This document shows positions 26,747 to 45,409 of a stretch of 64,000 nt of DNA, in pieces. Position 1 is the stretch's first letter. Each line of letters starts with the position of its first letter. A model generated the notes under the pieces. The model searched no databases. It had not been told where the DNA came from and worked only from the letters and a program-made list of their open reading frames with translations. Made by a program: the position numbers and the translations under genes. The stretch is from a virus, in IMG/VR virus record IMGVR_UViG_3300037961_005793, positions 1 to 64,000 of that record; one strand, given 5' to 3'.

Positions 26747-27618
26747 TACGTCAAAAACATGTTTTCGGTATGAATGGTATCTGATCCTTCGTATAAAGCA
26801 GGGGAGTATTTAACATCAAGATGTCTAACCAAACCGCACGGGTGAATCTGAACTGAATCACCGCATTTAATTAACGGCACAACTCGACGGTGCTCTTGGT
26901 TCGGTTTCAAACCCTCAAAAGCTAAACCCATAGAACTTCGGTCAGCGATCGGCCAGTTACGTTTGCCGACCACACGGTGACTCAGTTGAGGATGACAGCT
27001 TTCACTTTTTATATATTTCTCAGCATCTTCCTGGTCGAGAATCATCAAACCTGCGTAAGGGTTGCCTAGAGATGTGAAGCCAATAAAGTTCTTGTCGTTT
27101 GGCGTCAGTATCGTCCCGCATTCGTAAGGGATATCACCCCACACATCGGGGGTAAGTCCATAAAGGTCCCACTTTTTGTAATTATCAAAAGGTATATCTA
27201 GATCTCTGTACTCTTCATATCGGCAAAAACCAGGCTCAAGATTTAAAGGTTTGAGCACATCTTTGTAATCACGCCAGTAGACGAACTGTTTAGAGCCAAA
27301 GAGCATATCATTTTCTGAATACATATAAAAGTCATATTTTTTATCTCTTACTGCTTTTACAAAACTGGGTTTGTGAGCCCAACAAAGTGCGAAGCCTGCG
27401 TAGGACTCATCTGCGACTGTGAAGCTAACCCTGTCGAGGTGAACATGACTTCCAACAATTAAAGAGAATTCGTCAAGATCATACGAGTGCTCGTGATCGA
27501 TGAAAAACTCTACATAAACCCTCAGAGGTAGAGTTTCGTAAGCTCGTAGGGCAGCAAGTGTCTTCTCGATACGAGCAAGGGGGTTGTGGGCAGTGACGGC
27601 TATATAAATAGATTGCAT
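26746..27618 (-). CDS. GT-A-like glycosyltransferase
   Basis: 290 residues. N-terminal IYIAVTAHNPLARIEKTLAA and YVEFFIDHEH fit the nucleotide-sugar half of a GT-A fold; FYMYSENDMLF looks like the acidic metal-binding strand (END in place of DxD). The C-terminal half is Tyr/Trp/Gly-rich (PYAGLMILDQEDAEKYI). The exact family is not recognised. It overlaps the terminase stop. Confidence 0.6.
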   Translation of the reverse strand: MQSIYIAVTAHNPLARIEKTLAALRAYETLPLRVYVEFFIDHEHSYDLDEFSLIVGSHVHLDRVSFTVADESYAGFALCWAHKPSFVKAVRDKKYDFYMYSENDMLFGSKQFVYWRDYKDVLKPLNLEPGFCRYEEYRDLDIPFDNYKKWDLYGLTPDVWGDIPYECGTILTPNDKNFIGFTSLGNPYAGLMILDQEDAEKYIKSESCHPQLSHRVVGKRNWPIADRSSMGLAFEGLKPNQEHRRVVPLIKCGDSVQIHPCGLVRHLDVKYSPALYEGSDTIHTENMFLT

Positions 27619-29138
27619 CAGTACTCGACGTTGTAGTTGCCTCGTCTTTGGAGGTAGTTAATCAGATGCGTGTAAGCATCGAGCAAGTCATCGTGAGATG
27701 TTGCACCGACGTTCACGATCTGATCCATTAAAGCATCGAACTTACGGTATTTATTAAAGGTAACTTTTTTGTTTTCTAAAATTCCAAGGGTGCCTCTGAA
27801 CCTGGCGATCTTGTCGCCCCTAAACCCTTTAACTTCGTGGATATTTAAGTTGCTTAACCCTCGCTCAACAAGAAGCACACGTTTTAAATCCGCCGCAAGT
27901 GACGCCTGATATGCAACTGCTTCAACTACAAGTGTGATTGTTGAGTAAGTCGGAAAATACTGATCACCTTGTAGCTCTAGGATTCCCCATTCCACAAGCA
28001 TGTCGCACAGCAAATCGATTTTTTCTAAGTTTCCAATCGACCTGACCTGATGAGAGTCGATAATGAAATATTTATCCTTTAGTCGTCCTCCTAGAACAAA
28101 AGCTGTGTAGTCAGAAGTCTCATTCTTACTAGCTGACAAGTCGATACCGACTGCAAGGGTGTCGAACTCAGTTTCAACTTCGCCTTTAACAAGAAGATCA
28201 GGTGAAAGAACAAGATCAGATGTCATCACCGGCTGTTGCTGATACTGGTAAGCAAACGCAACAGGATCTAATTCTTTTTGACCCATAAGGTAACTAACAG
28301 ACCATTGCTCAGGCCAATAACTGACAGGTTCACCTTGTTTGTCGTACGTAAGGGCCTCCTGAGCCACCTGTTTCCAGCCTTTTTTAGGGATAAACATGGT
28401 CTTGTGGATATCCAAAGGATGGAATCTCGTGCCTAGACAAATCGAACGGCCACCCTCAAAAACAATCGGAGCGATAACTGACGACCAGTTGTTATTCATC
28501 TCTTCCCGTACAGCGGGGTTTTTGATGTCAGAGCTTGATTTAATGGGGTCATCCACGATCACGAGGTGTGCCCTTTTCGAGGTAATAGATCCTCGAAGAC
28601 CTGCTGCACGAAGTGTGAATTCTTCATCACCGATCCTGTCGATTCCGGCGTAGTCAAAGTCGATTGACCAACCGATGTCGCTCTGCATACCTGCTTTGAG
28701 CTTTACCTTTGGAAATATTTTTTTAAACGTGGATGAGTCGATGATCTGCTTGATGATTCGACTCTTGGGGATAGCAGTAGCGATGTTGTAAGAACAATAG
28801 ATAATCTGCAGAGGACGTTGTGCAGTTGTGTGCTTACCGATAACCCAAGCTGTAAATAGGTTAAGGACAGTCGATTTAGCCGAACCTCGGGGGCTCAGAA
28901 TATCAAGATTTGGCCCTGCGATATCTATTAGATATTTATTGCTGTCTCCTGTAATCAGTTCCTGATGCCACTCCAGCATATGCTTCGCTGGAGGTTTATC
29001 AAGAAGTGTACAGAATGTCAAAAAGTCATCCTGAGCACGATGAAAAACACTATCTATCGCAGAGTCATTACTATCGATAGCCCTTTGTGCTCGTGCTTTA
29101 AGAGCACGTCGATATGCGTAAGTTTCTCTACTAGGCAT
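27618..29138 (-). CDS. terL: Large terminase subunit
   Basis: 506 residues. Walker A SPRGSAKST (82-90), Walker B LVIVDD (192-197), coupling motif SICLGTR (232-238), and RNase H-like nuclease acids D333 (GIDLSASK), E406 (VVEAVAYQ) and D483/D487 (SHDDLLDAY). This motor cuts and packages DNA through the portal. The gene starts 45 nt from a divergent glycosyltransferase gene. Typical length. Confidence 0.93.
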   Translation of the reverse strand: MPSRETYAYRRALKARAQRAIDSNDSAIDSVFHRAQDDFLTFCTLLDKPPAKHMLEWHQELITGDSNKYLIDIAGPNLDILSPRGSAKSTVLNLFTAWVIGKHTTAQRPLQIIYCSYNIATAIPKSRIIKQIIDSSTFKKIFPKVKLKAGMQSDIGWSIDFDYAGIDRIGDEEFTLRAAGLRGSITSKRAHLVIVDDPIKSSSDIKNPAVREEMNNNWSSVIAPIVFEGGRSICLGTRFHPLDIHKTMFIPKKGWKQVAQEALTYDKQGEPVSYWPEQWSVSYLMGQKELDPVAFAYQYQQQPVMTSDLVLSPDLLVKGEVETEFDTLAVGIDLSASKNETSDYTAFVLGGRLKDKYFIIDSHQVRSIGNLEKIDLLCDMLVEWGILELQGDQYFPTYSTITLVVEAVAYQASLAADLKRVLLVERGLSNLNIHEVKGFRGDKIARFRGTLGILENKKVTFNKYRKFDALMDQIVNVGATSHDDLLDAYTHLINYLQRRGNYNVEY

Positions 29139-43616: not shown

Positions 43617-43656
43617 TGCGGCTTGCACAGCGCACCGTTTTTTCTTGAACAACTCC

Positions 43657-43980
43657 ATGATGATTATCGAGATCTACAGGCACCATGGCACATGGGCTTT
43701 CACTGATCCCTACAAAGGACTTGAAAACGAACCGTTTGTGGCGGGCATACCGGAAATCATCGACGAATTCATCGAAAAATTCAGTGACAAGACCCAAGAG
43801 ACGCACCGAATCACCTTTTCTTCGTCTGATTTCCCTGGTTCACACGGGAAACTAACCAAAACAAACCCCGAACAAGGAGGTGCTTGGTACAAATACGGCA
43901 AAAAAGAAGGTTGGTTGTGTCCGGCCACGCTGCACTACTTCCCAGAACACCCTGAGGAGCTTTTCGTACGGTTTAGCTAG
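43657..43980 (+). CDS. DUF6717-like conserved protein
   Basis: 107 residues from ATG 43657. IYRHHGTWAFTDPYKGLENE, FVAGIPEIIDEFI, FSSSDFPGSHGKLT and GAWYKYGKKEGWLCPATLHY match, from memory, a small widespread family of unknown role (DUF6717 type). It is the last gene before the 1.1 kb gene-poor region. Confidence 0.65.
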   Translation: MMIIEIYRHHGTWAFTDPYKGLENEPFVAGIPEIIDEFIEKFSDKTQETHRITFSSSDFPGSHGKLTKTNPEQGGAWYKYGKKEGWLCPATLHYFPEHPEELFVRFS

Positions 43981-44234
43981 CCTGATTTTTTTTCAGGCCG
44001 CTGTTATTATATTGCTACCCTAGAACTTTTACCCCCAAAATACCTAGAAGATACCCAGACCCTTCTCGCCCACGCCGTCGTATATGTCAAATAAGTAAAA
44101 AAAGGCAACATTGCGGGGTGCCGGGGAGGGGGGATAAGTATACCTTATGGATAAATGTAGTAAGGGGTAGTGTGACTTGGTGGGGGAGTCTCCTCCTATC
44201 ATTGTTTCAATTGGTGAACCACGGTGGGGTGGTG

Positions 44235-44243
44235 TGATACAAT
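44235..44243 (+). promoter_or_regulatory. Extended -10 promoter of the structured RNA
   Basis: TGATACAAT fits TGnTACAAT. No clear -35, which extended -10 promoters can lack. Transcription would start near 44250. Confidence 0.45.
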
Positions 44244-44288
44244 CGCGCACGCGCACGCAGTTCCTCTTAGTTACAAGGAGCGAACACA

Positions 44289-44351
44289 ATGTGCCAATCA
44301 CATCTCCGCACACCATTCTCACCAACGTCACCGGATCCGTGGTCTACTTAA
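44289..44351 (+). CDS. Tiny leader frame (20 aa), doubtful
   Basis: ATG 44289 has AAGGAG eight bases ahead (44275-44280). The product is MCQSHLRTPFSPTSPDPWST, without recognisable features. The good ribosome site argues for translation; the surrounding RNA structure argues against. Stop and next ATG share a base (TAATG). Confidence 0.3.
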   Translation: MCQSHLRTPFSPTSPDPWST

Positions 44352-44470
44352 TGGTGTCGAAGGGAGAGCGAGGCATGAGACCTCAGCACCGGAGACAATC
44401 TTCGAACTGTCACCAGTTCTTGCCGAGTTCGGCACAATCCCGTAACTTGGTTCACAAGTCAGGCAACTGA
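44351..44470 (+). CDS. Tiny basic frame (39 aa), doubtful
   Basis: Starts at the TAATG junction with the preceding tiny frame, begins MVSKGERGMRPQHRRQSSNC. Basic and low in hydrophobics. Its codons overlap three strong hairpins, so it may be chance. Confidence 0.2.
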   Translation: MVSKGERGMRPQHRRQSSNCHQFLPSSAQSRNLVHKSGN

Positions 44471-44852
44471 CCCACAATCCAACCAGCTTTGTTCAGTCCT
44501 TCGGGACATGTAACTAAGGCAGAACCTCGACAATCGAATCAGGATTAGCTAAGGGCAAAGGAGTTCCTCCTCCCTGGTGTGGCAATTGCCTCGCTTTAGT
44601 TATCTCCTGCTCTTCTTAATAGTTATGTGCCAGGTGTGTAGGGATAGCCTGCACTGCCACACGTCCGGCGTTCCGGTGTGGAGGGTGAACAGTAATGTTC
44701 TGATCGGCGGAATCGTCCGAGCCCAGCAGCACAGTTTTTAGTTACCTTCCCCATACAGGCGTGGTGTCTCTGTACATCAGGCCCCAGGGGGAAAGCTTCC
44801 TATCCTCATTTTGCTTCAGACCATACAATTTAATACTTTTGACATCATTTTG

Positions 44853-44880
44853 TGCGCTTTATGCGCTCTTTTTTGTTTTT
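44853..44880 (+). terminator. Weak GCGC hairpin followed by T-tract
   Basis: GCGC-TTTAT-GCGC at 44854-44866, then CTCTTTTTTGTTTTT. Short stem; the same 15-mer occurs with one change at 4930-4944, so a protein site is the alternative. Confidence 0.4.
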
Positions 44881-44977
44881 GCTGGGTAGGGTTGACTTAT
44901 GTCTAAGGGTTTGCAGTCTTGTAGTACCCATAGATACAGCAGCTCTACCTCAGTTTATGTTGTGATCATCCGTGATC

Positions 44978-45040
44978 ATGACCTTTTCTGGAGTTTATGA
45001 ATCCTCCCATGAGCCTTTTCGGTTCATTGAAGGACTCTAA
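44978..45040 (+). CDS. 20-aa leader frame before the minigene array
   Basis: ATG within TGATCATG (44973-44980), the same junction motif used by the following genes; product MTFSGVYESSHEPFRFIEGL. Could be a leader peptide or a remnant. Confidence 0.3.
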   Translation: MTFSGVYESSHEPFRFIEGL

Positions 45041-45073
45041 TCCTTCACCAATTGTTCTACGTTCATTCCAAAC

Positions 45074-45409
45074 ATGCGTAAGATCGAAACTCTCATGAAC
45101 AAAGCCCTCATTAACAGCAAGAACTGGAAACTTGCAAACACTGAGGTTACTTTCGACCAAGAATCTGGTCACTCTCGTGTATATCTACATGGCAACCACA
45201 TTGCCACCCTTGGTGAAACCTTCCTCACAATTACAGACGCTGGGTATCAAACAAGGACCACAAAGTCACGACTAAATGCAATCATCCGCACATTTTGTTT
45301 CGAGGGTGAGAGTATTTATCAGAAACGTGGCGAGTGGTTTGTGAAGAAGCAAACAGTAGATGGTAAAGACTTTGAGAACATTCCTTTTTACGGTACTTAC
45401 ACTTTCTGA
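45074..45409 (+). CDS. Conserved marine-phage-type small protein
   Basis: 111 residues. SRVYLHGNHIATLGETFLTI, DAGYQTRTTKSRLNAIIRTF and YQKRGEWFVKKQ match a pattern I recall in many marine phage genomes; function unknown. First full gene of the small-gene array. Confidence 0.7.
   Translation: MRKIETLMNKALINSKNWKLANTEVTFDQESGHSRVYLHGNHIATLGETFLTITDAGYQTRTTKSRLNAIIRTFCFEGESIYQKRGEWFVKKQTVDGKDFENIPFYGTYTF

Follow-up and report, generated by a model that had tools for sequence, protein, structure and literature searches.

BoxA elements have been described in rRNA operons, in lambdoid phages and at a few genes, and rRNA-type antitermination in E. coli acts mainly against Rho. GOLLD and ROOL are large structured RNAs encoded by phages, usually near a tRNA island, and form homo-oligomeric nanocages. 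The 5' region of GOLLD is poorly conserved (PMC12286853). In cyanobacteria, the spacer boxA reads GAACCTTGAAAA followed by CTGCATA (PMC8461337). EAR/epsC and JUMPstart are RNA elements of 5' UTRs with a link to antitermination (PMC2864571).

The locus analysed here lies in the window, a 64,000-nt stretch of an 80,883-base (80.9 kb) cyanophage record. The interval of the original prediction, 44235-44880, falls within a 1.1-kb non-coding junction of this phage. Its terminase (27618-29138) shares 45% identity with the counterpart in Synechococcus phage S-EIVl, an isolate of 79 kb that has the same junction; other phages are far more distant. Genes to the left of the gap are mostly on the minus strand, the terminase among them, and those to the right form a rightward plus-strand run that includes DNA polymerase A and a MoxR-VWA pair; the gap is read as a divergent late/early junction. 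One tRNA (tRNA-Leu) is 7 kb off on the opposite strand. The features of the junction and its borders are as follows.

43645-43980, plus strand: DUF6717 small ORF, the left border of the gap
43985-44200, no strand assigned: conserved non-coding block with the motif CCCCAAAATACC-N3-AAGATACCCAGACCCTTCTC and an A-tract, in about 17 relatives
44235-44243, plus strand: extended -10 TGATACAAT, kept as TGNTNNAAT in nine homologues and followed by a GC-rich stretch
44250-45073, plus strand: predicted structured untranslated leader RNA of about 820 nt (promoter, conserved plus-strand structure, no conserved ORFs)
44310-44357, plus strand: hairpin H1, ACACCATT/AATGGTGT, kept in 7 relatives, some with G-U pairs; loop side variable
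44404-44419, plus strand: hairpin GAACTG-TCAC-CAGTTC, read from the sequence
44421-44434, plus strand: hairpin H2, TGCCG-AGTT-CGGCA, with compensatory changes such as AACC/GGTT in L084 (arms chosen by eye)
44458-44471, plus strand: GNRA hairpin H3, GTCAG-GCAA-CTGAC, loop GCAA or GCGA in some relatives
44496-44507, plus strand: UUCG hairpin H4, GTCC-TTCG-GGAC, with G-U variants in L095 and L097 (arms chosen by eye)
44520-44535, plus strand: boxA-like element CAGAACCTCGACAATC, 17/18 identical to the Synechococcus rRNA leader boxA
44546-44602, plus strand: exchangeable folded cassette TAGCTAAGGGCAAAGGAG...GCTTTAGTTA, common to L089 and L263 in otherwise different RNAs
44687-44700, plus strand: GNRA hairpin GAACA-GTAA-TGTTC, read from the sequence and not conserved in most relatives
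44852-44880, plus strand: terminator-like hairpin GTGCGCTTTATGCGC with T-tract, called in the scan, short-stemmed, kept with changes in relatives
44881-44954, plus strand: large leader stem-loop GCTGGGTAGGGTTG...CAGCTCTACCTCAGT (26 pairs, 4 compensatory, 88% of cells paired)
44959-44982, plus strand: hairpin GTTGTGATCA-TCCG-TGATCATGAC, in nearly all relatives having this zone
45009-45027, plus strand: hairpin ATGAGCC/GGTTCAT, in 12 relatives, with compensatory TAAGCC/GGTTTA, GTAGCC/GGCTAC and CAAGCC/GGTTTG
45028-45047, plus strand: hairpin TGAAGGA/TCCTTCA, in 14 relatives, A-T changed to G-C in half, also T-A and G-C
45074-45409, plus strand: first early gene, Kyanoviridae gp96-like, 111 aa (PF23790, E 2.6e-40)

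About 17 IMG/VR contigs, identical copies apart, supplied homologous junctions; they were found via gp96, conserved DNA patterns and a protein of 108 aa encoded to the left; one pattern used as a query, GTCACAAGNTCTTGCCR, returned mostly unrelated contigs. Three zones can be told apart in the junction: the conserved block at 43985-44200, a hypervariable modular stretch at about 44250-44800, and a conserved 3' zone at 44830-45060. Several ORFs of 40-97 aa span the gap, and none is kept in frame: stops and indels of 1, 4, 11 and 28 nt interrupt them in relatives. We therefore rejected a coding explanation, in agreement with the original prediction that the interval holds no supported gene. Its central proposal, a folded non-coding phage RNA outside Rfam, is likewise backed by the homologues, by compensatory changes and by the loss of reading frames; we searched the homologues both for an absence of covariation and for conserved codons, and found neither. 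Neither the window region nor eight relatives matched any Rfam 15 family at gathering or permissive thresholds, and blastn of the junction against phage records returned nothing. Exchange of folded modules is also seen in a cassette of ~140 nt in L102 and L262, where CACAGTG/CACTGTG becomes CGTGGTG/CACCATG (by inspection). As separate observations, the L093 and L090 junctions carry AAGTATA/TAAGTATA direct and inverted repeats throughout, and a junction of this repeat-filled type has a strong fold on either strand (z -5.0 and -6.8), which sets it apart from other relatives. Identities of 14 nt to host 16S in the L262/L263 and L099 junctions (TTAAGTCCCGCAAC and AGAGAGACCGCCGG, both in the same part of 16S) were discarded as a signal, their number being about the chance expectation.

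The predicted extended -10 is indeed present at 44235-44243, and homologues carry TGATACAAT, TGGTATAAT, TGATTTAAT or TGGTTTAAT in its place, three of them (L084, L089, L256) with TTGACG/A 17-18 nt upstream. A generic promoter scan of the window did not call it. From this sequence we presume that transcription would start near 44250. TTGACA within the boxA was considered as a -35 and rejected, since CTCGACA or CTAGACA stands at this place in the window and in several relatives. The block upstream of the promoter, at 43985-44200, probably acts as DNA in controlling the divergent junction and does not belong to the folded RNA; the S-EIVl junction has a similar ACCCAACCCTTCTC with an A-tract, but gave no profile match. 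Within 43985-44120 of the window, which is strongly conserved, a TATAAT-like hexamer is kept on the minus strand, and this portion may control the leftward late genes or serve as an origin.

What points most clearly to a function, and was missed in the original prediction, is the boxA motif of host rRNA. The element lies ~285 nt 3' of the conserved -10, a predicted promoter, and 5' of the first early gene. The string (C)AGAACCTNGACAA is the single sequence that stays constant amid changing surroundings, and relatives carry it in the form AGAACCT(T/A/G)GACAA. In 18 junctions totalling 22.4 kb, the plus strand has 15 copies of ACCTNGACAA and the minus strand none, against a mean of 0.09 and a maximum of 2 in shuffled sequences. 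Twelve of the 18 junctions have a boxA, and in nearly all of these it is the best match to whole host rRNA operons, reaching 19/19 in L088. Each boxA-bearing RNA holds one to three boxes, usually a single one; L263 has a leader-type box and then a spacer-type box, and L102 has three. On the host side, the motif is found in 56/61 genomes of the host order. Prochlorococcus and Synechococcus-like genomes have one box ~355-400 nt upstream of 16S (AGAACCTAGACAA or AGAACCTGGACAA) and a second in the spacer 3' of 16S (AGAACCTTGACAACTGCATA). Some Prochlorococcus and cyanobacterial contigs (L143:1989, L189:6754, L179:1337) contain GAACCTTGAAAACTGAATAG where neither end of a 16S gene was detected in the vicinity; the signal may thus serve picocyanobacteria at non-rRNA loci too.

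The junction is non-coding, it has conserved structure on the plus strand and a boxA matching that of the host, and NusB (PF01029) scored above cut-off in 5/5 host-order genomes; NusB was not found in the phage record. On this basis we lean towards a modular structured leader RNA that would recruit the host NusB-S10 (rRNA-type) elongation complex for the early operon, in which transcription, NusB-S10 binding and the effect on polymerase are what we infer from sequence. Host RNA polymerase would start near 44250 and proceed rightward from the divergent junction to the start codon at 45074. As the boxA (44520-44535) emerged, host NusB-S10 would bind it as on ribosomal RNA and convert the polymerase into an rRNA-type, pause-resistant elongation complex. 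This modified complex would then traverse the long stretch of structure, and the hairpin at 44852-44880 as well, before transcribing the early operon, with folded domains exchangeable between phages as cassettes. The proposed leader is kept while the first gene 3' of its conserved zone varies (gp96 in the window, a different gene in L084, L255 and L262), which counts in its favour. Several results count against it. With one mismatch allowed, no box was detected in six of the 18 junctions (L085, L091, L093, L096, L100, L255) or in S-EIVl. The variant of the window itself, GAACCTCGACAA, which has C at the free position, did not occur in the host rRNA operons fetched; the host matches examined lie outside rRNA, and two viewed in detail as genes were coding-like or unassigned. 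Finally, no Rho scored above cut-off in the same five host-order genomes, so that a role directed at Rho, as known from E. coli, is unlikely; pause-resistant elongation or help in co-transcriptional folding would be more plausible.

We compared the fold of the junction with that of shuffled sequence. The segment 44240-44870 reached z -3.0 (20 shuffles), and a slightly longer stretch -4.4 on the plus strand and -2.15 on the minus strand. The best 200-nt window on either strand of the 64 kb was 44801-45000 on the plus strand (z -5.48; minus strand -1.52), which begins inside the originally predicted interval and extends beyond it; the remaining 200-nt windows of that interval were moderate (z -1.1 to -3.4 on the plus strand). 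For conservation, RNAalifold consensus energies were set against column-shuffled alignments. The block upstream of the promoter gave z +0.8 (plus) and +0.3 (minus), 44280-44580 gave -6.0 and -3.6, and 44830-45070 gave -8.4 and -8.9, this last zone scoring equally on the minus strand, so that the test alone leaves the strand unfixed, a further point against the leader reading. Conserved structure is thus confined to sequence 3' of the -10, where z reaches -6.0 and -8.4 as compared with +0.8 on the 5' side, and this also counts for a leader RNA. In an alignment of six sequences, the 3' zone has 57 predicted pairs, 8 of them with compensatory changes; the share of paired cells is 90.3%, compared with 36-45% in slid controls, and the covariation score was reached by 0/500 shuffles, the six sequences forming two main groups so that independent events are fewer than cells. 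In the structure-anchored comparison, the hairpin at 45009-45027 changes T-A to G-C and C-G across relatives.

Further upstream, the short hairpins and loops first named (GCAA, GTAA, TTCG, TCAC) all occur at the stems given for them, and taken singly they are not demonstrated beyond chance. MAFFT misaligned the third leader hairpin in those relatives whose loops are longer, and arms were therefore compared by structure; the arms used, those of H2-H4 included, were picked by hand from inspection, which is a source of bias. H2 is broken or imperfect in L096, L082 and L255, L097 has AGTCA/TGACT in place of H3, and L082, L084 and L089 have a different stem at the position of H4. The arms of the predicted 10-bp long-range pairing (44511-44520 with 44593-44602) exist, but the minimum-energy fold contains a rival 10-bp pairing, 44507-44516 with 44620-44629. 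The GC hairpin with T-tract is likewise present at 44852-44880, but its stem is short (4-5 bp). An end of the element at 44880 proved too early: the strongest structure spans 44801-45000 on the plus strand, paired elements reach 45047, and structural conservation does not stop at the terminator but carries on into the first early gene's leader.

These boundaries bear on the alternative that survives best, a stand-alone large ornate RNA or RNP ending at the T-tract near 44880 and GOLLD/ROOL-like in kind, whose boxA would merely aid its completion and folding by host polymerase, as for rRNA. Such an RNA would account for the separate -10 and the terminator-like hairpin, for the complex-fold cassettes common to relatives, and for the conserved structure in 44280-44580. 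Yet the best conserved structure lies beyond a terminator whose stem is short, and in the hypervariable middle no common core fold was seen; we consider this explanation unlikely. Less probable again is a DNA-level element, such as an origin of replication or a site for packaging or recombination, with palindromes that fold in silico without serving as RNA. The divergent junction, the conserved block without RNA structure at 43985-44200, and relatives that fold well on both strands (e.g. L093) would fit such an element. The sequence data instead favour the plus strand: the strongest window in the single-sequence scan is strand-biased (-5.48 vs -1.52), the G-U variants and the GNRA and UUCG loops point to the plus strand, and the boxA occurs on that strand only.

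A scan for the spacer-type box led to T7-like cyanophages. The isolates S-TIP37 (MH540083:459), S-RIP2 (L329:2612) and S-CBP3 (L330:3145) carry GAACCTCGACAA, the window's variant, near the end of the terminase-thyX block and upstream of early genes, in unannotated sequence in S-TIP37 and S-RIP2 and within a small hypothetical ORF annotated on the opposite strand in S-CBP3. In S-TIP37 the box runs on as CTGCATAA, like the host spacer, and in S-RIP2 and S-CBP3 a hairpin, CTCGACTCTCCCTG..GAGGAGAGTCTCGA, lies directly 5' of it; the three leaders have little else in common with the window. That an unrelated lineage has the same boxA at the corresponding functional position argues most strongly for action on host polymerase. 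Host-type boxA (AGAACCTTGACAACTGCATAG or GAACCTCGACAACTKCATAA) was also observed before early genes in T7-like L307:3867 (minus strand), L317, L326 and L306, in addition to the three isolates. Separately, 40 viral stretches (L289-L328) contain ACCTTGACAACTGNATAG, a boxA of spacer type; in many of them it falls in non-coding or short-ORF sequence of seemingly unrelated phages, and boxA may be widespread in phages other than cyanophages.

More tentatively, we suggest a new class of large modular phage RNAs mimicking the host rRNA operon, with leader- and spacer-type boxA between exchangeable folded domains and early transcription by the rRNA machinery, the signal having been acquired by unrelated cyanophage lineages including T7-like ones. 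A decoy, in which the RNA would accumulate and sequester NusB-S10 via boxA so that host rRNA synthesis falls during phage takeover, is a shade more doubtful than a DNA-level element: RNAs with up to three boxes, and stable folds that might lengthen RNA life, would suit it, but the box is usually single, and its position in an early-operon leader, in T7-like phages too, better suits a role in cis. That the junction is an ordinary intergenic gap with chance hairpins or decayed coding sequence is very improbable and already contradicted, since single hairpins within chance and the ORFs crossing the gap are outweighed by column-shuffle z of -6 to -8, the pair counts, the frameshifts and stops in relatives, and the boxA enrichment. 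If the proposed leader function is true, abundant marine phages would run their early genes in the host's ribosome-making transcription mode, in hosts seemingly without Rho, and the cultured carriers of the motif (S-TIP37, S-RIP2, S-CBP3) make the proposal testable.

Among described systems, EAR/epsC and JUMPstart belong to host operons rather than phages and have no sequence or Rfam relation to this RNA, and no rRNA-type boxA is described for them in the text consulted (PMC2864571). GOLLD and ROOL are likewise large structured phage RNAs of similar length, and poor conservation of one part, seen here, is found in GOLLD too, but the comparison made in the original prediction is not supported: here there is no Rfam match and no tRNA island nearby, the architecture differs, a boxA is present and structure enters a gene leader. 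Closer is the lambda nut site (boxA, boxB and N protein), which also places a host boxA in a phage early leader with hairpins nearby; here the box follows the host rRNA sequence and the leader is far longer and folded. As for a partner like N, small early ORFs exist here, and N proteins are too short and divergent for exclusion by profile. With the boxA of rRNA operons the locus shares the boxA sequence, its strand and a long structured untranslated RNA, and one junction even has a leader-type and then a spacer-type box; the phage copy, however, precedes early genes and sits among swapped hairpins, and NusB-S10 binding to it is a prediction. In the literature, covered in part, we found no paper on boxA in cyanophages or on a long modular boxA leader there. 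BoxA-type control itself is known; what appears new is a long, modular, boxA-bearing cyanophage leader with swapped folded cassettes, absent from Rfam.
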